The translations under genes were made by a program, and so were the position numbers. A stretch of 45,686 nt of DNA, from positions 1 through 45,686 of IMG/VR virus record IMGVR_UViG_3300010885_071107; one strand, written 5' to 3'. The stretch comes from a virus. Positions within the stretch are counted from its first letter, which is position 1. The number at the start of each line of letters is the position of its first letter. Under the pieces are notes generated by a model. It did no database searches and was not told the origin of the DNA. It worked only from the letters and a program-made list of their open reading frames with translations. This document shows, piece after piece, positions 1 to 43,215 of this stretch.

Positions 1-33
1 AACCCTTAGGGTTAATGTCAACCCTTAGGGTTA
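1..33. repeat. Two copies of a short palindrome after the tail tube gene
   Basis: The 14-base unit AACCCTTAGGGTTA occurs at 1-14 and 20-33. Each contains the palindrome AACCC-TTA-GGGTT, so each could form a 5-bp hairpin with a 3-nt loop. The second copy contains the tail tube stop codon (31-33). Placed just after a late gene, the pair could be a transcription end or RNA-stabilising element. There is no clear T-tract, and the window edge hides whether more copies follow. Confidence 0.6.
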
Positions 34-573
34 CTTTTTACGCCAGTAGTGATATGCTACTGTAGCGCCGAATTCAACGGTTTCTCCATTACCCTGCATA
101 TTATAAGAAAGGGCACCAACAGTGCGGACGCTAACACCAACCAATTGATATTGCGCAACGCGGTTTAATTGAGCGTCTAATTGAACTAAATCAATTGTAG
201 ATGTTTGCCGCGGTGTAAAATAATTACCTGTACTCTGGGAATCATCAAAAGTATCTAATGACCATTGTTCAAACTTTTGGCGAATTTGAGATTTAGCATC
301 ACAAAAGAATTTTAAATCATAACCTTCGCTACCGGGATATTCAGCCGTGCCTGGGATATTAAAGTTGAGGCCCATATAAGGCACTGCAACATTTTTAATA
401 TTTCTGCCTGGTAGTGTAGCAGCTTTAATATAAACTAAATCATCCTCGTTAAATGTAACAGAAGATGTACCTCCAGTGTTGATTGACAGTAATCTAAAGT
501 TGACATCACGTGAGAAGTCACGAGCTACTGCTACTCTGTAAAAGTCCTGAATTGTTTGTTTTACGTCGGCCAT
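31..573 (-). CDS. 19: Tail tube protein, T4 gp19-like
   Basis: This 180-residue protein is predicted to form the inner tube of the contractile tail, through which DNA passes. The N-terminal part (DFYRVAVARDFSRDVNFRLLS) leads into a compact beta-rich domain ending in a hydrophobic/aromatic tail (FGATVAYHYWRKK), as in gp19 proteins, and the length is close to the family size. It directly follows the sheath gene on the same strand, matching the T4 order 17-18-19. A late box AATAAATA at 580-587 lies 6 nt before the ATG, so it should be made late. Assignment rests on family resemblance and synteny. Confidence 0.85.
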   Translation of the reverse strand: MADVKQTIQDFYRVAVARDFSRDVNFRLLSINTGGTSSVTFNEDDLVYIKAATLPGRNIKNVAVPYMGLNFNIPGTAEYPGSEGYDLKFFCDAKSQIRQKFEQWSLDTFDDSQSTGNYFTPRQTSTIDLVQLDAQLNRVAQYQLVGVSVRTVGALSYNMQGNGETVEFGATVAYHYWRKK

Positions 574-588: not shown

Positions 589-3132
589 TTAGCTTACTAT
601 TTCCTGGAAGTTTACACCAGTACGTGTGGCATAGAAATTCGCTAGGATGAATTCGGCGGTTCTTACGGGTTTAATATAAATGTCAACAATTAAAGTGTTA
701 TCATCTATAACGGTTGGCGTATTGTTACGTTCATCACAGATAATCAAGTAATCATAAATACCTTGTGTATTTTTAGCATTCTCAAAAATAGGAGTTAATG
801 CATTAATAACTTGGGTGCGTGTGAATAACGTATTAGGCTCAAACACATAGTATTTGAGTGTATCTCTTGTAGCTATTTCCATAGCTAAGAACAAGCGACG
901 AACATTAATACGATCAAAAGCACTAGGAGCTTTCAATAAGGTCTTCTGCCCATATACCACAAACCCATCAGATGGGAAGAAAGCTACAGGATTGAAACTA
1001 GACTTATATAATTGATCACGTTGTTTTTGGCGTGGATAATACGCTATGTCGGATACTTGTGAAACAATACCCCGTCTAAAACCAGCAGGTGCATACCATG
1101 GCTGATAGTTAGTATCGGTATTAGCCATTATAGATGCTGCAAATCCTGAGAACGGAACCCAGATAGGTGAACCTGTTGTTATATCTGTTACGCGAACGCA
1201 TGTCGGATAAGTGACTAAGTAACTACTATTGTATGGGGCAAATTGATTTTTTAACGGCCACAATACATTTGTAGTGAAGTTAGTTAAATCCGGATCATTA
1301 ATGGTTTTGACTGAATTTGACTGAACCAATACTGGTGTTAATGGATCTAGGATACCAATCAAGTCCTTACGAGCTGGATTTTCAACAAATGATTGGATTG
1401 TGTTAGCAACACCCTGATAACTTGTTACTAGAGCATCGGTTGATGGAGAGCCGTTGAATGATGATAAACCTTGAGTGTTTACATATGCATAGTCATTAAA
1501 TGTGGAGGTACCAGCACTAGAACAGGCATATACTGTACCTAAGCCACCTTCACAGGCTATATTAATTGAATATACATCTGAATTCAGCAGATTATTTAAA
1601 ATAGTCTGCAATTTAGAAGGCACATTACCGATGGTTTTATCAGCTGCATTAGCAGAGAAATAACTACCTAAGGGAAATATTGCATCTGTATCTCCGTTAT
1701 TATTTGATGCCCAATCTAAAACATTTGCATTATTAAATCCAAGATATGTTAGACTATTGCCGGCCGAATTTGGATTCGTATAGGTGAATAATGTATTGTT
1801 TTTAGATGTCGGGTTACTAGCGCGAATTTTAATGATTGGTGTACCATCTAATTGCAAGTAACTAAGACCCCCGTTTGTACGTGACAGATATGGGTTAACC
1901 TTTACCACTATAGTGGGGCTATTGCTATTGATCTGATTTTCTATGAAGAAACTCTGCGCAGGACCACCATTGGTAGAATTAATAAGCCGTTTACTATCTA
2001 AAGATCCAATATAACCTTCCTCGAGTGCAAATCCAAGTTGTATGCTAGTAGAAGAAAACACAGACTGTTTCAATTTGAATAACCCAATGATAAGCGTATC
2101 ATCATAAGACCGATCAACATATGTATCATAGCCAACAATGCTAGTTTCTAATACTTGGGATATGCTATTATCTACTCCATTATCCGTAGAATCTGCAGAT
2201 AATGTAAATCCATATCTTTGAGATGGAATTATTTGATAAGATGAATTAGTAACAAAGGTCGCACTTGTGTTGAGTGATTTAATCTTGGTAATTGTATCAA
2301 AATTAGTGACCGGGTTTAAATTAGTATTATCTACAACACCAACATAATAACCTTCATATAGATTATTAATATTACTTGAGGCTTGATTGGCTATAATTAA
2401 AGCCGCATTTCCCAAACTAGATATGCTAGAATTTAATGTGCCTGAGCATATATTGCTATACGTGAATAAGCTTCCGTTTTGGAAATCATTAAACTGACTC
2501 TTTGTTAACGTATAGTGTACTGGAGCACCTAAAATATAGGTACCACTAGTAGCTTGAGTGAAATTCTGTGTTCCAACACTCGTTAAAGACACAGTAGATG
2601 TTGAAAAATTAGCACTTACACCATTCCAAAGAGTAGAGGGTGAACTGCTAGATATAGAGTTCTGTACGGTATTTCCAGCTGGGATGCCGGAAGGGAACGC
2701 TGCAGATAGAGTTGGTACAGCTGAAACATATGTGTAAGCTGTAGTTGTATTGCACTTATAAAAAATCGGATCAGTTATATAATTTGTTACGCTGGTATCA
2801 ACGAATACAGCTGGATAAGCCAATAATCCTATACTTGAATTATCAATAGCTCCAGCACTACCATATGGTAGGCGGGATACTAATATATTAGCCGGGCTTT
2901 GGAGAGATGCCTTTACAGTATTGTAAAAGTATCTTTCTGCACCATTTGTTGGTTGGCCGTATATTTGTTCAAATTCTGATAGACTTGCAACCGTGATTGC
3001 ATCATTTATAGGACCACGTGGGGCAAACCCCGGAACAAAGATGGTAGTTCCTGTCGTTTGCACTGGACGCAAAGAAAGATCTATTTCAGAAATCTGTACA
3101 CCTGGCGAATCTATTTTTCTATTTGTTGCCAT
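589..3132 (-). CDS. 18: Contractile tail sheath protein, T4 gp18-like
   Basis: This 847-residue protein is the predicted tail sheath, which polymerises around the tube and contracts at infection. The N-terminus (SPGVQISEIDLS, then FVPGFAPRGP) and the C-terminal domain (RRLFLAMEIATRDTLKYYVF, then TRTGVNFQEIVS) are typical sheath elements that link subunits together. It is longer than the roughly 660 residues of T4 gp18. The extra length is a Ser/Thr/Asn-rich middle section (about residues 100-480), probably a surface-exposed insertion. The gene lies between the tube-like gene 3199-3807 and the tail tube gene. A late box CATAAATA lies 12 nt before the ATG. Confidence 0.93.
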   Translation of the reverse strand: MATNRKIDSPGVQISEIDLSLRPVQTTGTTIFVPGFAPRGPINDAITVASLSEFEQIYGQPTNGAERYFYNTVKASLQSPANILVSRLPYGSAGAIDNSSIGLLAYPAVFVDTSVTNYITDPIFYKCNTTTAYTYVSAVPTLSAAFPSGIPAGNTVQNSISSSSPSTLWNGVSANFSTSTVSLTSVGTQNFTQATSGTYILGAPVHYTLTKSQFNDFQNGSLFTYSNICSGTLNSSISSLGNAALIIANQASSNINNLYEGYYVGVVDNTNLNPVTNFDTITKIKSLNTSATFVTNSSYQIIPSQRYGFTLSADSTDNGVDNSISQVLETSIVGYDTYVDRSYDDTLIIGLFKLKQSVFSSTSIQLGFALEEGYIGSLDSKRLINSTNGGPAQSFFIENQINSNSPTIVVKVNPYLSRTNGGLSYLQLDGTPIIKIRASNPTSKNNTLFTYTNPNSAGNSLTYLGFNNANVLDWASNNNGDTDAIFPLGSYFSANAADKTIGNVPSKLQTILNNLLNSDVYSINIACEGGLGTVYACSSAGTSTFNDYAYVNTQGLSSFNGSPSTDALVTSYQGVANTIQSFVENPARKDLIGILDPLTPVLVQSNSVKTINDPDLTNFTTNVLWPLKNQFAPYNSSYLVTYPTCVRVTDITTGSPIWVPFSGFAASIMANTDTNYQPWYAPAGFRRGIVSQVSDIAYYPRQKQRDQLYKSSFNPVAFFPSDGFVVYGQKTLLKAPSAFDRINVRRLFLAMEIATRDTLKYYVFEPNTLFTRTQVINALTPIFENAKNTQGIYDYLIICDERNNTPTVIDDNTLIVDIYIKPVRTAEFILANFYATRTGVNFQEIVS

Positions 3133-5542: not shown

Positions 5543-6442
5543 ATGAAAGAAGCAAATAGCTATTTAACAGAAATTGGTGCTTTATATGGTGCCATGCTAG
5601 ATCAGGTGGTTGTCGAAAAGACCACTAAACTTAAACCATTCGAACGGGCCAGTGATAAAAAGCCGGGAGAAAAGAAACCTTCTAAGAACCCCTTCTTTTT
5701 CAAAAAGTCAGGACCGGGCATGAAACAGGTACCCATTGAAGCAAAAATAAATCCAAAATTTTCTCAAGCTATGGAAAAAACGGAAAGCAAAACAATAAAT
5801 AATTCCATGAGCAAGCGATTTGATGACTTATTCAACAACGTGATTCAGCATAAACTCCAATTGGAAGCTGATGATATAGAAACCATAGAAGACATTTCAG
5901 CCGCGCCTGAGGGTGCTGGTGATGAGGGTGTCAATGATACCAACGGCGCGGATGAAGATCTCACCGTTGAAGAGCTTTTAGCCAAGGCTTGCGAGCTCAT
6001 TCAATTAGCACAAGACAAGATGTCAAGTGGTGCTGAGGAGATGGGTGAATCTGAACACGGTGAAGATAGAGAACAAATGGGCGGCGAGGATAATGAACAA
6101 GCCGTAGGCGAAGGCCAAGCTATTTGGTCTGTTGATAACACCGTTGATGGTTCTGGTAAACTACTTGCCCCTACTAAGGGCACTGATCTAGAAGGCGCTG
6201 CGAAGAAATTAACAGGCACCAAAGGTACTAACAACCAAACAGGTGACGTAACCAAGAAATTAGCCGGCAAGGGCAAAGTGGGTCAATGGGGTGTGAATAA
6301 TCCAGTTGACGGCTCCGGTAAAGTAATTGATACCTCACACAGCACTGACTTAGCTGGTGGCGCCAAAGCGTATATCAATAACAAGGGTCAAGCAAACGTT
6401 GTGAGCAGACTTAAAGCCGGCCAGCAGATCGGTGAGCTATAA
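5543..6442 (+). CDS. Acidic repeat protein with head-targeting-like leader
   Basis: This 299-residue protein belongs to no family I recognise. It begins MKEANSYLTE, with an L-T-E site at residues 8-10 resembling a prohead-protease cleavage point. A Lys-rich segment (25-60) follows, then a very acidic region (about 105-190) and two related repeats of about 50 residues (about 195-248 and 249-299), each with V-D/N-N-x-V-D-G-S-G-K and T-D-L-x-G-A-K. It is transcribed divergently from terminase through a shared late box and ends in a strong terminator. A scaffold or internal-head role is an inference from the leader, charge and location. Confidence 0.75.
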   Translation: MKEANSYLTEIGALYGAMLDQVVVEKTTKLKPFERASDKKPGEKKPSKNPFFFKKSGPGMKQVPIEAKINPKFSQAMEKTESKTINNSMSKRFDDLFNNVIQHKLQLEADDIETIEDISAAPEGAGDEGVNDTNGADEDLTVEELLAKACELIQLAQDKMSSGAEEMGESEHGEDREQMGGEDNEQAVGEGQAIWSVDNTVDGSGKLLAPTKGTDLEGAAKKLTGTKGTNNQTGDVTKKLAGKGKVGQWGVNNPVDGSGKVIDTSHSTDLAGGAKAYINNKGQANVVSRLKAGQQIGEL

Positions 6443-19301: not shown

Positions 19302-20168
19302 ATGTATAATGATAAAGATTTAATTTTTGAAAAGTACACTAATAAGGTATTAGTGTTGGAATTCCCTGTTTATGCGTCTTCCACATATACAGATCCCAAT
19401 AAAGCACTTCATACCCCATCAGATCCAGATGCTGGTGGTGCTGGTTATGCTATTGGCACCTATGCTACTAAAGCCAATCTAGATCCTTATGACGTGGCTT
19501 TAACCATTGCAGATCTTGTCAAAACACGCCTATTTAAACCGGGTAATAATACATATAAAGGGATTTCATATGATTTGGAATATACCGGGAGTAGAGATCA
19601 ATTAGAAAAAGAAATACAAGGCATTATAACAGATGAATTTGCTGCTAAAGGACATAAAACCCACTTTAGACAGGCTAAAAATGCAGCTCGAGAAATTGCT
19701 GGTAAGGTTTTAAATGTATCTCGCGAAGTAGGAAGTGCAGGGCCCTCTATTCCATCTGCCCCTAAATCTGTTACACCATCAACTACCCCCAAAATCATAG
19801 CTGTCGCATCAAAAGATGTGGATGATGTATTTGAACGCATTTTTAAAGCAAAAATAAGTCACCCCCCTTCTTTAGATTTGAATTCTACCTATAAAGCAGG
19901 TGGTGTAGATCCGTCAGATGAATTGGCTGCTAAATTTAATACTGAAAGGGCTAAGCGAGCTGCAAATGTTTATTATATTTTTGCCGCTGGCAGTAACCCT
20001 GAAGAATGGCCAAATACAGATCTTACAGTTACCTCTAAACATGAGTTTACGGGTGCTGAATTAATGACACTAATTAGCCGTAGATTAGGGTATCCATTTA
20101 CGATAGCCAAAGAAGCTATTAATGATCTAATAAGAAATGGGTTTATTCATAAGGTTATAAGTCCTTAA
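19302..20168 (+). CDS. Late protein of unknown function with leader-like N-terminus
   Basis: This 288-residue protein starts at ATG 19302; an upstream ATG at 19272 would place the late promoter inside the gene. The start MYNDKDLIFEKYTNK contains I-F-E, a possible prohead-protease site. The body has a Gly/Ala-rich part (DAGGAGYAIGTYATKA), a Ser/Pro linker (about 142-160) and a C-terminal helical region with a winged-helix look (LMTLISRRLGYPFTIAKEAI). The last 14 bases overlap the convergent queC gene. Function is unknown; virion or packaged protein is inferred from the late promoter and leader. Confidence 0.7.
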   Translation: MYNDKDLIFEKYTNKVLVLEFPVYASSTYTDPNKALHTPSDPDAGGAGYAIGTYATKANLDPYDVALTIADLVKTRLFKPGNNTYKGISYDLEYTGSRDQLEKEIQGIITDEFAAKGHKTHFRQAKNAAREIAGKVLNVSREVGSAGPSIPSAPKSVTPSTTPKIIAVASKDVDDVFERIFKAKISHPPSLDLNSTYKAGGVDPSDELAAKFNTERAKRAANVYYIFAAGSNPEEWPNTDLTVTSKHEFTGAELMTLISRRLGYPFTIAKEAINDLIRNGFIHKVISP

Positions 20169-20853
20169 GACCAACCGGCCAAGGTATTTGTATAGAGTAA
20201 TCTAATGGATCTTTATACCCAGCATCTATAAATCCTTTCAAACGCAAAGAACAAGCTGTACAAACTGCACACGCCTTATCTTTACCTTCATAACAAGTCC
20301 ATGTATCTTTAAAGCTAACATTTAAAGATATACCCAATTCAATAATTTCCTTTTTACTTAATTCTATTAGGGGTGCTTCAATCTGAATTTTATTACGACG
20401 ATTCAAGAATAACAAATCATTAATCTTTCCTAAAAATTCCTGACTTCCATCCCAATATCCAGCCACGCTATCAACTTGCGCTGCACCATGATACACCGTA
20501 GAAGCTCCAATTGTTTCCGCATATGCTACTGCAATACTCAACATCATCATATTTCGATTAGGCACATAATTAGGTGTTTGTGGATCTCCCATTACATCTT
20601 TGGCTTTAGCTACTGCTATATTGTTATTGGTGAGAGCTGAGGCGGATGCTATATGCCTAAAGAAAGATATATCTAATACTTGATGAGGTATTTTCAAAAG
20701 ACTTGTTGTCTTAATAGCATAATCTAATTCTTTAGAATGCCGTTGATTATAATTAAATGATAGGGCATAGACCTCATCAAATTTATTTTTTGCTTTATAA
20801 AGAAGCACTGTACTATCCATGCCACCAGAAATTGGAACCACAACTTTATTCAT
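20155..20853 (-). CDS. queC: 7-cyano-7-deazaguanine synthase QueC
   Basis: This 232-residue ATP-dependent enzyme converts 7-carboxy-7-deazaguanine to preQ0. It shows the PP-loop SGGMDS (9-14), the YVPNRNMMMLSIA segment and the C-terminal zinc site C-x7-C-x2-C-x2-C (in TCYEGKDKACAVCTAC), with family-typical length. FolE and QueE are also encoded in the window; QueD is not. In phages these enzymes usually feed 7-deazaguanine into DNA to resist restriction. The early promoter has the same geometry as those of folE, queE and the amidotransferase gene. Confidence 0.95.
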   Translation of the reverse strand: MNKVVVPISGGMDSTVLLYKAKNKFDEVYALSFNYNQRHSKELDYAIKTTSLLKIPHQVLDISFFRHIASASALTNNNIAVAKAKDVMGDPQTPNYVPNRNMMMLSIAVAYAETIGASTVYHGAAQVDSVAGYWDGSQEFLGKINDLLFLNRRNKIQIEAPLIELSKKEIIELGISLNVSFKDTWTCYEGKDKACAVCTACSLRLKGFIDAGYKDPLDYSIQIPWPVGLKDL

Positions 20854-36111: not shown

Positions 36112-36597
36112 TTAATTAATTTTAATTGAAACCGATGTAGGTGTTGGTTTTTCATCTTCCTGTTTGGGCAGGGTTATAATTAACAACCCATTTTCAAACT
36201 TGGCAGATATCTTTGATTTGATAATTTTTTCAGATAAATCAAAAGACCTCTTAAAACTGCTTCGTTTAATTTCTCTTTTAATATACTGACCCGTTTGGGT
36301 TGTGTGTTTAGTAGATTTGCCACTGATAGTAAGAACGTTATCAGAGATATCAATATTAACGTCATCCTTAGACAGACCATTAACATCTGCTTCTATGATG
36401 ATGTGATTGTCATAATTAACAATATCAACCTTTGGATACGCTTCATTACCCAGCCAATTTACTCCAACCTCCTTATAAAGCTGTGGAAATGTTTTACTTA
36501 AAAGGTCATCAAAAACCTTATCAAAAGGTGTAACTTCTTCGTTTCGGAACGGCGAAAAGAACGCGTTCCCCGTTAGTGGGCCATGTATTAGTTTCAT
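36112..36597 (-). CDS. hsp20: Small heat shock protein, Hsp20/alpha-crystallin family
   Basis: This 161-residue chaperone has an N-terminal arm (about 1-48), then the alpha-crystallin domain (YPKVDIVNYDNHIIIEADVN; DVNIDISDNVLTISG; KRSSFKRSFDLSEKI; ENGLLIITLPK) and a short C-terminal tail with a V-S-I-K-I end. It would hold unfolded proteins during infection. Such genes are common in marine T4-like phages. It is a single-gene unit with its own terminator; no canonical promoter of either class could be placed with confidence. Confidence 0.93.
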   Translation of the reverse strand: MKLIHGPLTGNAFFSPFRNEEVTPFDKVFDDLLSKTFPQLYKEVGVNWLGNEAYPKVDIVNYDNHIIIEADVNGLSKDDVNIDISDNVLTISGKSTKHTTQTGQYIKREIKRSSFKRSFDLSEKIIKSKISAKFENGLLIITLPKQEDEKPTPTSVSIKIN

Positions 36598-36689: not shown

Positions 36690-36697
36690 CATAAATA
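36690..36697 (+). promoter_or_regulatory. Late box of the 36703 gene
   Basis: CATAAATA, 5 nt before ATG 36703. Confidence 0.75.
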
Positions 36698-36702
36698 ATC
36701 TT

Positions 36703-37143
36703 ATGAATAGCTTGTTTAAAAATGAATTTTTTAATGTTTTGCCTAAAGATACAGATATTGCTGTAAATTTACATCCATTGCTAGAAAATTATCAAACTAC
36801 CTTCATTACTGATGAAGGTAAACCTATACATGTTGAATTTTTCCAGCAAGATGAGGATTTATTTGAAGAGGCTGAATATCATGGTCGTAAGGTTGCGTTA
36901 GGTAAAATAATCCGGGGTGATATTAAAAAATTTAAGGTGTATGTAAAAGATCCCAAAACAGGCAATGTTAAAAAAGTAAATTTCGGGCATGGTGGAAAAA
37001 CCGCTAAGCGCTTAGGATATAAGCAAGGTATGCACATTAAAAAGAACAATCCAGCTCGCCGTCGTAGTTTTAGAGCTCGCCATCATTGTGAGTCTCCTGG
37101 GCCTCGCACCAAAGCTCGGTATTGGGCTTGTCGTACCTGGTAG
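36703..37143 (+). CDS. Basic late protein with conserved-looking C-terminal motif
   Basis: This 146-residue protein has an N-terminal half ending in acidic residues (EFFQQDEDLFEEAEYHG), then a basic C-terminal domain: KKFKVYVKDPKTGNVKKVNF, and an Arg/His/Cys-rich end (RRRSFRARHHCESPGPRTKA, ending YWACRTW). I recall closely similar C-termini in many tailed-phage proteins of unknown role, some linked to head maturation, but no name can be given. The two cysteines and histidines could bind zinc. It is transcribed from a late promoter and followed 12 bases later by the next gene. Confidence 0.75.
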   Translation: MNSLFKNEFFNVLPKDTDIAVNLHPLLENYQTTFITDEGKPIHVEFFQQDEDLFEEAEYHGRKVALGKIIRGDIKKFKVYVKDPKTGNVKKVNFGHGGKTAKRLGYKQGMHIKKNNPARRRSFRARHHCESPGPRTKARYWACRTW

Positions 37144-37155
37144 TCTATTTTAAAT

Positions 37156-37995
37156 ATGAAAAATTTTAAAAAATTCTTCAAGCTTAATATAGAAGATACA
37201 GAACCAGAAGATGAAACTCCCACTTGGCCAGATACCAGTGACGTAGATAAAGACTTTAAAAGAGGATCTAGTAATTTTCCTCACGGAGCTGCTTACCCAA
37301 ATCGCAAACTGTCTTATGATAAGGTTGTAGAATTAAATAGCATTTATGGTGTATCTGAAACTAACGTAGAAGAATTTTCAAAAAAACATTTAAAGGCTGT
37401 GTACTACTATGCTAAAAAACATATGCCGTGGTTAGAGTTATATGATACTGAAACAGGATATTATGGTCCTGATAAATTAGATGACTATATTAAGGAAGAA
37501 AGCTCTTCAGCTTTAACTGCATTAATTGATGTTATAAATCGGCGTACAAAAACCTTTAAGTATTGGGCTCTAGTAACTGATACCGAAATGGAAAATCTTA
37601 AATCTGAAAGCTGGAGGGTAGAAGCAAGACAAAAATCATTAGATATATTAAAAAAATATCCTGATGCTATAGCGCAGATTGAAAAGTTTAATCAATATGA
37701 ACATTTTTTAAATGATGAAGATCCTTATAATCCTGAATATGAGCTGAACTATCCCCTGTATGTGTCTCTATATGATATATCTCGTAAGTTGGGAGGCTCT
37801 GAGGAAGGGGGTTGGTGGTATGATTCTTATGATAATATAAATAGTTATAAGGTTAATAATTTTCAAGAAGCTGAAAAGGCTGCTAAACATTTATATAATT
37901 CTATAGGAAGAGCTGATTTAGACGGTCAACCCACCATATGCCTTGAAAAGACCCCCGGTTCTCGTGTAAGTACAAAAATACCAACATATGAGTAA
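37156..37995 (+). CDS. Unknown late protein
   Basis: This 279-residue protein begins MKNFKKFFKLNIEDTEPEDE, a Lys/Phe-rich start then an acidic stretch. The body is helical and rich in Tyr and Asp (LKAVYYYAKKHMPWLELYD; GGSEEGGWWYDSYDNINSY). No family is recognised. It overlaps the next gene by 8 bases, so both are likely made from the late mRNA starting near 36703. A packaged or structural role is possible because of its neighbours. Confidence 0.7.
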   Translation: MKNFKKFFKLNIEDTEPEDETPTWPDTSDVDKDFKRGSSNFPHGAAYPNRKLSYDKVVELNSIYGVSETNVEEFSKKHLKAVYYYAKKHMPWLELYDTETGYYGPDKLDDYIKEESSSALTALIDVINRRTKTFKYWALVTDTEMENLKSESWRVEARQKSLDILKKYPDAIAQIEKFNQYEHFLNDEDPYNPEYELNYPLYVSLYDISRKLGGSEEGGWWYDSYDNINSYKVNNFQEAEKAAKHLYNSIGRADLDGQPTICLEKTPGSRVSTKIPTYE

Positions 37996-39070
37996 GCATT
38001 TTAAAAATTTCTTAAAGAAAAAAATGATTTTTGAGTCCTGGAACGGCATGTGGATTGAATATTGGCTTACACCAAATGGTAAAATAGAAAGAGCTGCAGA
38101 GGGACATTATACTTGGGCTGAGCAACGTGGCATATTAGACATACCAAATGAAATGTGGAATGACAGGGAGTATGTTTATCTGTGCATGGCTAAAAAAGGA
38201 TATGTTAGGGTTGTCAAAACAACAGTTGAAATATTCTTTCAAAAATACATTAAAGCATTAGATCGGAAATTTGTGGTTCATCTAAATCGATTACAACGTA
38301 GTGCTTTAATAAGTTTTGGCATGGAGACTCACAAAGCTGTTATAGGCACGGGAGAACCAGATGATCGAGATGAAGATGTATATCTACCTGGAGATTTCTT
38401 AACGGAGAATACAGTTGTTGGAGTCAGTGAACCGGTTGAGATAAACGGTATAGGTGCTGTAATTGCAAAGGTGGATAGTGGTAATGATGGATATAATGTT
38501 ATACATGGCATTAATATTCAGCGTCTTAAAAATGATAAGGGTGAAATTATAATTAAATTTCAAACTATAAACGGGCAGACTGTTAGCTTTAGACAAATTG
38601 GATGGGTAGAGGTTGTTGCTGGTGGTAGAGGTCACAATCGCCCAGTTATAGGGTTGGGGTTAAAAATAAAAAATAAATTTTTTGAAAACGAACCCTTTAG
38701 CGTGGCTGATAGGTCTCAAAATGATGAAAAAATTCTATTAGGTGTACCATTTATTAAAAAATTAGATGCAATTATAGATGTCAATAAAGCTGAAGTAGTA
38801 AGCGAGATCCATAGTGAGTCTCAGGAAAGAATTATAAACGCCCACAATGATCGTATTGACAAAGAAATAGAATCATTAAGGAAGGATATAGTTAATACGG
38901 AGGCAGAGCGAGACTATGCTATGGAGTATAAAGGTGAGGGATGGAAGGTGTATAATGATAGGATAGATAATTTACAAAAAGAAATATCAAAACTAGAAGG
39001 TCAAAAATTAGTACATGCTGCTATCAGTAAATCCCGTTTTGGTGAAATTCGTAGAAACCTAGAATCTTAA
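37988..39070 (+). CDS. Retropepsin-like aspartic protease (RimB type) with leader and coiled coil
   Basis: This 360-residue protein has a leader-like start (MSKHFKNFLKKKMIFESWNG; I-F-E before Ser at 14-17), an unknown domain (20-140), then a domain resembling the RimB/PF05618 retropepsin-like family: GAVIAKVDSGNDGYNVIHG with Asp163-Ser-Gly in place of the usual D-T-G, GGRGHNRPVIGLGL, FSVADRS (237-243) and ILLGVPF (249-255). A charged coiled coil follows (about 275-345). An L-T-E site at 138-140 lies just before the protease domain. It would act as a homodimeric protease if active; cleaving head proteins is a guess. Confidence 0.72.
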   Translation: MSKHFKNFLKKKMIFESWNGMWIEYWLTPNGKIERAAEGHYTWAEQRGILDIPNEMWNDREYVYLCMAKKGYVRVVKTTVEIFFQKYIKALDRKFVVHLNRLQRSALISFGMETHKAVIGTGEPDDRDEDVYLPGDFLTENTVVGVSEPVEINGIGAVIAKVDSGNDGYNVIHGINIQRLKNDKGEIIIKFQTINGQTVSFRQIGWVEVVAGGRGHNRPVIGLGLKIKNKFFENEPFSVADRSQNDEKILLGVPFIKKLDAIIDVNKAEVVSEIHSESQERIINAHNDRIDKEIESLRKDIVNTEAERDYAMEYKGEGWKVYNDRIDNLQKEISKLEGQKLVHAAISKSRFGEIRRNLES

Positions 39071-39071
39071 T

Positions 39072-39401
39072 ATGTTTAATGTCATTAAATCAGCTATAAA
39101 AGATCTTAGTCAAGGCAAGCCTTTAAAATTAAGATCATCCCATTGGGAAGCAACCAGATCTTTGTTTTTAAAAACAAATCCTAGCTGTGCGGCCTGTGGT
39201 GGAATTTCAAAACTTCAGGTTCATCATAAACAGCCATTTCACTTATTCCCGGCTCTGGAATTAGACCCTAGTAATTTAATTACTCTTTGTGAAGAACAAA
39301 CTAAATGCCACCTAGATATAGGCCACCTAGGTAATTGGAAGTCTTTTAATCCGTTGGTAGTAGAACAGGCTTCAAATGCCCTTTTAAAAACAAAAAAATA
39401 G
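39072..39401 (+). CDS. HNH endonuclease
   Basis: This 109-residue protein has the HNH layout: SCAACGGISKLQVHHKQPFH (first Cys pair and the catalytic His pair), DPSNLITLCEEQTKCH with the second Cys pair, ending before a helical tail. It is a free-standing single-domain nuclease. It could be a homing endonuclease or, as in several phages, a nuclease that works with terminase. The neighbouring folE gene has a duplicated 3' end, which favours a mobile-element history. It starts one base after the previous stop. Confidence 0.85.
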   Translation: MFNVIKSAIKDLSQGKPLKLRSSHWEATRSLFLKTNPSCAACGGISKLQVHHKQPFHLFPALELDPSNLITLCEEQTKCHLDIGHLGNWKSFNPLVVEQASNALLKTKK

Positions 39402-39430: not shown

Positions 39431-39480
39431 GATATATCGGCTATTAGTTACGACATTATCCAATATATCGGCTGTTAGCC
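39431..39480 (-). repeat. Duplicated 3' end of folE
   Basis: On the minus strand the last codons of folE, CTAACAGCCGATATATTGG then ATAAT, recur just after the stop as CTAATAGCCGATATATCAG then ATAAT, 31 bases further on. 21 of 24 positions agree. Translated, the second copy would read NSRYIR-stop against NSRYIG-stop in the gene. Confidence 0.75.
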
Positions 39481-40196
39481 ATATCTCTCACAAAACTATA
39501 AAACTCCTCTCTAACAGGTGCTTTCTCTAGGAATGCTCCACTCAGGTCACTAGTCTTCATGCAAGCTCCATCATGATTAACGCCTCTCAAGCAAGCACAG
39601 GTATGGGTAGCACTAATCATTACAGCAACACCAATATTTCCCTCACAGGTATTGTTGATAGCCTTATGTATTTGGGATGTAAGACCTTCCTGAATTTGAG
39701 GTCGACGAGCATAGAACTCTACAATGCGATTTAATTTGCTCAATCCAATAACTTTGCCGTCCGGACTTGGAATATAAGCTACATGCGCTTTACCAACAAA
39801 TGGTAAATGATGGTGAGAACAAAGACTCTTAACTGGAATACCGCCTTGAAATACCATTCCAGTATACTTGTCTACATTTTCAAATGCCGTGATTCGTGGC
39901 GGTTCTGAATAGCACCCAGAAGCTATTTCATTTACGAAAGCTTTAGCTACTCGCATGGGTGTGTTGGCACTATTAGGATCAATGCGCCAATCAAAACATA
40001 AAGCATCCAGATAAGCCTCATAAGCCTTTGCTGCCCGAACAATAATTGCCTTTCTTTCGTCTTCGGTTCTAGGCAAATTGCCGTTAGCGTGAGGTAATTT
40101 TGTTAAATTATTAAACATAATTCTATTAGCTTCACTGAAAATCTCTTCAGCTACTGGCTCATCTATGTTATTGGATAGAGGTTTATTATCAGTCAT
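39456..40196 (-). CDS. folE: GTP cyclohydrolase I FolE
   Basis: This 246-residue enzyme turns GTP into dihydroneopterin triphosphate, the first step toward both folate and 7-deazaguanine. It shows the zinc and catalytic residues in [40 protein letters not shown], and HTCACLRGV with the Cys of the zinc site. The N-terminal about 45 residues are an acidic extension. With QueE and QueC in this window it makes a preQ0 route likely. Its early promoter matches that of queC almost base for base. Confidence 0.95.
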
Positions 40197-40202
40197 AGGT
40201 TT

Positions 40203-40230
40203 ATTATAAGGTGTTTAAGAAACTTTTCAA
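40203..40230 (-). promoter_or_regulatory. Early promoter of folE
   Basis: Minus strand: TTGAAA (40225-40230), 16-bp spacer, TATAAT (40203-40208), 6 nt (AAACCT) to ATG 40196. Its -35 directly abuts the plus-strand late box at 40231. Confidence 0.8.
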
Positions 40231-40238
40231 CATAAATA
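40231..40238 (+). promoter_or_regulatory. Late box abutting the folE promoter
   Basis: CATAAATA, 11 nt before ATG 40250. Confidence 0.65.
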
Positions 40239-40249
40239 ATATTACTAAT

Positions 40250-40651
40250 ATGCGTTTTAATCACGTATTTTTTGAAAATGTAGGCAAACACCTTAAAAGA
40301 GTAAGGATTAAGGTAGACCCCCGCCATGCTTCCTTTGAGCAATTCCGATACGTGGATAGCTATGAGGGGTATATTCTAGAAGAAAATAATCAATTTGTAA
40401 AGTTAATGGTTATTAAAACTGGGTCACCTATTGTAGATATACCCTGTGATGCTTTGACCTCACCGTCACCTTTAGATCATTTTAAATATTTTATATTTAA
40501 ACATTTACAAATATTAGATTCTGAATCTTATTTTACTAATATTAAAAATGCTGCCCGCTATGAAGATGTAGAGGCATTATTAAAACAACGGGGTAGCTCG
40601 GATGCTGAAATCATAAATTTATATAGAGAATTTGTAAAATCCCATGAATAA
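40250..40651 (+). CDS. Small unknown late protein
   Basis: This 133-residue protein is placed at ATG 40250 because the late box lies 11 nt upstream. A GTG at 40211 would give 13 more residues ([13 protein letters not shown]) but would overlap both promoters. The sequence has a small beta domain (YEGYILEENNQFVKLMVIKT) and a helical C-terminus. It overlaps the next gene by 8 bases. No family is recognised. Confidence 0.65.
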   Translation: MRFNHVFFENVGKHLKRVRIKVDPRHASFEQFRYVDSYEGYILEENNQFVKLMVIKTGSPIVDIPCDALTSPSPLDHFKYFIFKHLQILDSESYFTNIKNAARYEDVEALLKQRGSSDAEIINLYREFVKSHE

Positions 40652-42474: not shown

Positions 42475-43215
42475 ATGAGTGAATTATTTTTATCAGATGA
42501 TTATGTTTTCTATACCATAGAAGGGGAAGGTAGATATGCTGGTGCACCCTCTGTTTTTATGAGGCTTTCCATGTGCAACCTCACCTGTCAAGGATTTAAA
42601 AGTGCAGCATCTCCTTTTGGTTGTGATAGTTTTGTAAGTTGGTCTATTAAAAACAAATTGGAATTTGAAAGAATTTTTCAACTCCTAGAAGAAAAGGGGT
42701 ATATTGATAAGCTGTTTAAAGGAGCTATCTTAAAGATTACAGGAGGAGAACCGCTTATCCAACAAAAGAAGTTGCTGGAATTCATGCAAACCTTTGTAAA
42801 GAAGTATGAATTCAGGCCTATAATTGATTTTGAAACAAACGGTACTCTTATGCCAGACAAAGACTGGTCAGAGCTTTATGGAGCAACATTTACAGTATCT
42901 CCTAAATTATCTAATAATGGAGATCCAGAAGAAAAGAGATATATTCCTGAGGTTTTGCGCCGGCATGTTGAATTGGGTTCTTGTTTTAAATTTGTTGTTA
43001 AGACACCAGAAGATGTAGATGAAATTAATACAAAGTATATTAAAGAACCTAGCATACAAGTACCAAGGATTAATACATGGCTTATGCCATGCTGTGGATC
43101 CCGTCAAGAACAAAATGATGTGGCAGTTGTAGTAGCAGAACTTTGCAAGGAGCATGGGTTTATGTTTAGTGCCCGCCTGCAACTACTTATTTGGGATAAG
43201 GCTCTTCGCGTTTGA
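42475..43215 (+). CDS. queE: 7-carboxy-7-deazaguanine synthase QueE (radical SAM)
   Basis: This 246-residue radical SAM enzyme makes 7-carboxy-7-deazaguanine, the QueC substrate. It has FYTIEGEGRYAGAPSVFMRL typical of QueE, the glycine motif ITGGEPLIQ and a late FVVKTPEDV. The cluster cysteines follow C-x3-C-x11-C (MCNLTCQGF, then FGCDS) in place of the standard C-x3-C-x2-C; phage QueE enzymes often vary here. The promoter matches those of folE, queC and the amidotransferase gene. The P-loop kinase gene follows 29 bases later. Confidence 0.93.
   Translation: MSELFLSDDYVFYTIEGEGRYAGAPSVFMRLSMCNLTCQGFKSAASPFGCDSFVSWSIKNKLEFERIFQLLEEKGYIDKLFKGAILKITGGEPLIQQKKLLEFMQTFVKKYEFRPIIDFETNGTLMPDKDWSELYGATFTVSPKLSNNGDPEEKRYIPEVLRRHVELGSCFKFVVKTPEDVDEINTKYIKEPSIQVPRINTWLMPCCGSRQEQNDVAVVVAELCKEHGFMFSARLQLLIWDKALRV

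Follow-up and report, generated by a model that had tools for sequence, protein, structure and literature searches.

A RimB/RloA-like retropepsin domain encoded by a late gene of a T4-like phage: a candidate injected protease for polyglutamylated host proteins

The DNA analyzed here, hereafter the window, comprises the 45,686 bases of an IMG/VR virus record (IMGVR_UViG_3300010885_071107) that belongs to a T4-like myovirus, as judged from its translations, the relatives of its terminase, and its gene order compared with related contigs. Genes for the tail tube, sheath, and terminase occupy its left end and UvsX-, UvsW-, and gp46/47-like genes its middle. The subject of this study is an intact open reading frame (ORF) at 37988-39070 on the plus strand, the third gene of an operon spanning 36703-39401, in which all 360 codons are open. 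Its product of 360 amino acids (aa) combines a short leader, an N-terminal domain, a second site of the type cut by gp21 (the prohead protease of T4), a retropepsin-like domain, and two long C-terminal helices (Table 1). The full-length structural model is confident for the protease domain and poor for the N-terminal part. For the N-terminal domain, searches of Pfam, PHROGs, phage sequences, and nine related contigs turned up no convincing relative, and a sequence-pattern search of IMG/VR returned no close relatives of the whole 360-aa protein. Helices are predicted at residues 274 to 314 and 319 to 359, in agreement with the C-terminal coiled coil described in an earlier reading of this DNA (the original prediction), which had also proposed a RimB-type aspartic protease. 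The motifs on which that proposal drew lie in the translation at residues 160 to 165 (AKVDSG), 212 to 221 (GGRGHNRPVI), 240 to 243 (ADRS), and 250 to 255 (LLGVPF), with L-T-E at 138 to 140.

Table 1. Features of the retropepsin-like protein and its operon in the window
Feature	Coordinates	Strand	Basis
Retropepsin-like protein, 360 aa	37988..39070	+	ORF and translation
Leader, residues 1-16, MSKHFKNFLKKKMIFE followed by S; capsid-targeting-like, with I-X-E gp21-type site	37988..38035	+	T4 rules of PMC9026906
N-terminal domain, residues 17-137, without known relatives	38036..38398	+	low-confidence model
L-T-E before N, residues 138-140, second gp21-type site	38399..38407	+	same place as leader end FLE before N of stand-alone orthologues
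Retropepsin-like (RimB/RloA-like) domain, residues 141-268	38408..38791	+	profile and structure matches
Lys161, aligned to RloA K46	38468..38470	+	profile alignment to 9g58
Asp163, predicted catalytic residue (KVDSGN)	38474..38476	+	invariant in 27 relatives
Arg218, aligned to RloA R114	38639..38641	+	profile alignment to 9g58
Arg242, aligned to RloA R137	38711..38713	+	profile alignment to 9g58
Two long helices, coiled-coil-like, residues 274-359, without known relatives	38807..39064	+	full-length model
TAAATA late-promoter-like box	36692..36697	+	5 nt upstream of start codon of operon's first gene
Operon's first gene, 146 aa, phrog_7595	36703..37143	+	profile match
Operon's second gene, 279 aa, IP-like leader MKNFKKFF	37156..37995	+	3' end overlaps protease start by 8 nt
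HNH endonuclease gene, same operon, directly 3' of protease gene	39072..39401	+	PF01844 above cutoff
Conserved neighbor gene	40211..40651	+	adjoins protease gene in contigs G006-G008

That residues ~141 to 268 form a retropepsin-like domain is near certain. A comparison with the Pfam profile PF05618, proposed earlier as a check, was borne out only in part: PF05618 was the best Pfam match, but both the whole protein (E = 0.0065, 16.8 bits) and the domain alone (E = 8.6e-4, 19.7 bits) scored under the curated cutoff of 27, which relatives from Pelagibacter phage Mosig (28.0 bits) and Yersinia phage YerA41 (29.0 bits) pass. The NCBIfam RloA3 model gave E = 2.3e-4, also below its cutoff. A jackknife profile made from 26 relatives without the window protein scored that protein at 103 bits (E = 1e-30), where the best of 2000 shuffles reached 10.6 bits, and a profile made from ligase-retropepsin fusions only still gave E = 8e-21 (shuffles, ≤13 bits). 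Searched against PDB, the family profile matched RloA (9g58, E = 1e-10; 9g59, 3e-9) and Legionella Lpg0085 (2pma, 8e-9). The fold was also computed directly: an AlphaFold2 model of residues 135 to 281 (predicted local distance difference test score, 87.1; predicted template modeling score, 0.79) retrieved with Foldseek 2pma (5e-9), RloA (1.4e-8; 9g58 and 9g59 both at about 1e-8), and HIV-1 protease (4.6e-4), with a probability of 1.00 throughout. Profile and structural matches thus agree on a RimB-type aspartic protease with DSG in place of DTG.

Conservation narrows the active site to a few residues. Across 28 diverse sequences only D163, G165, N166, R218, and L250 are invariant, position 164 being S or T; E148 and K161 are invariant too once YerA41 is excluded. 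H173, G212, and R242 are close to invariant. Asp163, singled out in the original prediction, is retained by every one of the 27 relatives, and the window protein is likely to be a catalytic protease. A zinc protease, the historical Pfam name, was rejected, since the pattern of conservation (columns D, G, N, R, and L, followed by E and K) is unlike a zinc site.

The bacterial RimB and RloA retropepsins were characterized as aspartic proteases in 2025. RimB trims glutamates off ribosomal protein S6 (RpsF), and its D31 is essential (PMC11957791). In RloA, residues K46, R114, and R137 hold polyglutamate and are conserved between RloA and RimB, the substitutions R114A and R137A abolish activity, and ~8 consecutive glutamates are required (PMC12239564). 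In the profile alignment to 9g58, these three residues align with K161, R218, and R242 of the window protein. Chiefly because these fall at the polyglutamate-binding positions of RloA, we predict polyglutamate as the substrate, and the window protease would probably be an endopeptidase specific for it. With RimB of the RimABK system of Pseudomonas (PMC11957791) the window protein shares the domain fold (by homology), D-[TS]-G, and the lysine and arginine residues of the substrate channel, and its phage family is likewise linked to RimK-type ligases, as a fusion or as a neighbor. It differs from RimB in being phage encoded, in having DSGN rather than DTGA, and in the additional parts that it carries (a leader, an N-terminal domain, and C-terminal helices); RimK was not found in the window or in near relatives, whose contigs are fragments, and the activity of the window protein is only predicted. 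RloA (9g58, 9g59; Legionella Lpg0085, 2pma; PMC12239564) provides the best structural matches and the aligned polyglutamate-binding residues, but it is periplasmic by way of a signal peptide and has a disulfide, whereas the leader of the window protein is capsid-targeting-like and its domain lacks cysteines.

At least 380 loci in IMG/VR were confirmed by a profile scan. The nearest relatives among the matches listed are stand-alone proteins of ~130 to 165 aa that are 36 to 41% identical; in the tree the window protein, on a long branch, groups with them in a single clade (support, 98/94). Gene order agrees with orthology. In contigs G006, G007, and G008 the protease gene is surrounded by counterparts of the genes that neighbor it in the window, with gp46/47- and UvsW-like genes on one side and orthologues of the window genes at 40211, 42174, 43245, and 44271 on the other, which identifies the window gene as the orthologous member of a conserved cluster whose product, in the window phage, carries an N-terminal domain and C-terminal helices as additions. 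The contigs with the nearest terminase (G001 and G002) do not include the protease region. A pattern scan of bacterial genomes gave two matches only, L171 and L172. The first (L171, 4956-6734, on a contig of a goat colon metagenome-assembled genome binned as Lachnospiraceae) is a 592-aa protease whose long C-terminal extension indicates that the added parts vary across the family; its contig looks like that of a jumbo phage and shares the gene order of the 208-kb contig G003, and L172 looks like a pelagiphage.

The sole annotated phage match was the C-terminal part of a "glutathione synthetase" of Mosig (L001, 7029-8414, QOI68969.1), in which a PF05618 domain follows a RimK-like ATP-grasp ligase, a layout found also in YerA41; in contig G010, ligase and protease are separate adjoining genes. 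Marine phage proteins of that name (Mosig L001, many IMG/VR loci, L003-L082), each with a RimK-type ligase, a C-terminal retropepsin, and a T4-type leader, are widespread. The RimBK hybrid of Desulfotalea psychrophila (PMC11957791) also holds RimB and RimK domains in one polypeptide, but RimB is N-terminal there, whereas in the phage fusions the ligase precedes a C-terminal retropepsin; a ligase is absent from the window protein, unlike the hybrid. The RimK domain PF08443 was found in G010 only, with no match in the window or in 9 of the 10 related contigs, these being fragments, and none in near relatives, the 208-kb contig included.

The gene had been called late, and this is most likely the case, since a TAAATA box heads its operon. 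Computed over the window, a TAAATA box stands ≤20 nt before 17 of the 63 ORF starts (0.8 expected, and one in each of six offset controls), among them those of the tube, sheath, and terminase genes; the 17 include 31..573 (-), 589..3132 (-), 5543..6442 (+), and 36703..37143 (+). The spacing is 5 to 12 nt, mostly 5 to 7, so that the phage's late transcripts would have almost no 5' leader. T4's exact TATAAATA showed no enrichment over the whole window, unlike the shorter TAAATA just ahead of ORF starts.

The N terminus points to the phage head. T4 internal proteins are targeted by leaders of 10 to 19 amino acids whose positions 4 and 7 are important, with gp21 cleaving after (L/I)-X-E (PMC9026906). 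Two T4 leaders are MKTYQEFIAE/A and MKTFKEF...ITE/A (slash, cut), and the IPIII pattern of the first is [FY]xx[FY][IL]xE. Of 51 distinct ligase-retropepsin fusion N termini, 44 show this pattern in their first 24 residues, compared with 0.085% of internal windows; because these N termini are mutually related, the count reflects conservation and not 44 independent events. The stand-alone orthologues begin MKSFKEYFLE/NTF, with the leader immediately preceding the domain. In the window protein, the predicted leader ending I-F-E before Ser is indeed present and capsid-targeting-like (residues 1 to 16): F5-K-N-F8 and then I14-F-E16 provide the aromatic-x-x-aromatic and (L/I)-X-E elements, closer to IPI. 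Leaders with both elements are found in 6 of the 24 plus-strand ORFs of the window versus 3.6% internally (P = 2e-4) and in 0 of the 39 minus-strand ORFs. The L-T-E140 before N-T matches the position of FLE before N-T in the short orthologues, so that a second gp21 cut would give a protease like theirs. Finally, purified YerA41 particles contained a RimK-type protein (PMC7354516, Table 3), and YerA41_066 is annotated as a structural protein. An internal head protein is likely for the family and probable for the window protein; packaging has good support across the family, and for the window protein we infer it. The T4 proteins IPI, IPII/IPIII, and Alt are comparable in their short leader, aromatic-x-x-aromatic, and gp21-type (L/I)-X-E site, in that there are several per genome, and in that some are injected to act on the host; no sequence relation, however, was seen past the leader, and none of them is a protease. 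Nine further short plus-strand ORFs of the window (at 5543, 8996, 22607, 23108, 32815, 34718, 40211, 40644, and 44050) have leaders ending in hydrophobic-X-E and probably encode further internal head proteins, as judged from these N termini.

Three roles had been proposed for the enzyme: maturing head proteins, cutting itself free, and acting on the host after injection. A separate gene for the PF03420 gp21 serine prohead protease is present in G003 and G007, both of which have the orthologue, and in the more distant G010; PF03420 had no match in the window. Since relatives have gp21, the window-type aspartic enzyme does not replace the prohead protease, and that role was rejected; gp21 is likewise a phage protease tied to the prohead, but of serine type, with an unrelated fold, and encoded separately in the relatives. 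Self-release found no direct support, the L-T-E before the domain fitting cleavage by gp21. We therefore favor the third role, at a probability of roughly 0.6: an internal late head protein that would be trimmed by gp21, injected with the DNA, and cleave polyglutamylated host proteins. In this scenario the late-made protein would be drawn into the prohead core by its short leader and trimmed there by gp21 after I-F-E16; a probable second cut after L-T-E140 would free the protease domain with an N terminus like that of the 130-aa orthologues. The domain would be ejected with the DNA into the host, where two copies would form a retropepsin dimer, each contributing its Asp163, and cut polyglutamate stretches, most likely tails added to host proteins by a RimK-type ligase, of which ribosomal protein S6 is the known case. 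No ORF of the window or of the examined regions of relatives contains a run of ≥5 Glu, so that nothing points to a polyglutamate substrate encoded by the phage itself, and a post-translationally modified host protein is likelier; as near relatives have no RimK domain, the tails would need to come from a ligase of the host or from some other ATP-grasp enzyme.

Several observations weigh against this interpretation. The window protein misses the curated cutoff of PF05618, and its DSGN has an unusual N where RimB and RloA have A after D-[TS]-G. Single chains alone were folded, and the dimer with an active site at its interface is a prediction. The leader fails the strict IPIII 7-mer, having K in place of E, and resembles IPI only, and the regular expression applied to the window ORFs was chosen after the sequences had been seen. 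YerA41 is a distant phage with a different leader, and its list of 63 particle proteins takes in replication enzymes.

The least unlikely of the alternatives is that the leader is merely an N-terminal helix and that the late enzyme, unpackaged, acts on ribosomes or on something else within the infected cell. The RimK-like genes of cyanophages, whose annotation is that of S6 modifying enzymes, the cytoplasmic function of RimK-RimB pairs, and the departure of the window leader from the strict pattern would fit this, whereas the conservation of T4-type leaders in the family and in neighboring genes, the YerA41 particle data, and the stand-alone orthologues, which carry the leader alone right before the domain, argue for packaging. 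If packaged, the enzyme might work inside the prohead and not for the host at all, helping gp21 by degrading glutamate-rich scaffold or leader fragments, as suggested by the core-targeting leader, by the retropepsins that mature retrovirus virions, and by the proteolytic removal of T4 core proteins (PMC9026906). We consider this unlikely, given that relatives have gp21, that the head-cluster ORFs examined show no run of ≥5 Glu where RloA needs ~8 in a row (PMC12239564), and that the glutamate ligase on many family members has no obvious use at a scaffold step. Least probable is a degenerate domain that binds polyglutamate or RimK without cutting: RimB also stimulates synthesis by RimK (PMC11957791), and both the long branch and DSGN versus DTGA could speak for decay, but D163, G165, and the three polyglutamate-binding residues are kept in relatives only ~25% identical, and the 208-kb contig has no RimK to bind.

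Returning to the injected protease, it is tempting to speculate, if only tentatively, that T4-like phages of many hosts pack and inject a polyglutamate-editing kit (a retropepsin alone or a RimK-type fusion) at the start of infection and so rewrite the tails on host proteins such as S6, the window version being a precursor released in the prohead by gp21 at L-T-E140. A large phage branch of these retropepsins, with capsid-targeting leaders and often joined to a glutamate ligase, would place the polyglutamylation of ribosomes or other proteins among the direct targets of phage takeover, starting within the first minute of infection, and raises the testable question of which host protein gains or loses glutamates upon infection. 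The analysis defines an enzyme whose substrate and catalytic residue are predicted, and it corrects such labels as "zinc protease" and "glutathione synthetase" that databases give to these phage proteins. The novelty claimed for a phage aspartic protease holds for its role and not for its existence: related phage proteins are already labeled "ATP-dependant zinc protease" or "putative protease" in databases, but no described role or packaging was found. In the literature that could be searched, no injected phage aspartic protease is described, retropepsin and bacteriophage co-occur just in passing, and no paper joins RimK with phage heads.

As for the surroundings of the gene, the phrog_7595 domain makes up residues 56 to 146 of the product of the operon's first gene and is shared by pelagiphages and by Roseobacter and Flavobacterium phages, in one of which it is named HVA1 family. 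A putative small heat-shock (Hsp20-like) protein gene, recognized by reading, lies beside the operon (36112-36597, -), and 39456-40196 (-) encodes GTP cyclohydrolase I (FolE; PF01227 profile match). Together with putative QueC-like (20155-20853, -) and QueE-like (42475-43215, +) genes, both likewise assigned by reading, FolE would form a 7-deazaguanine pathway, perhaps for DNA modification.
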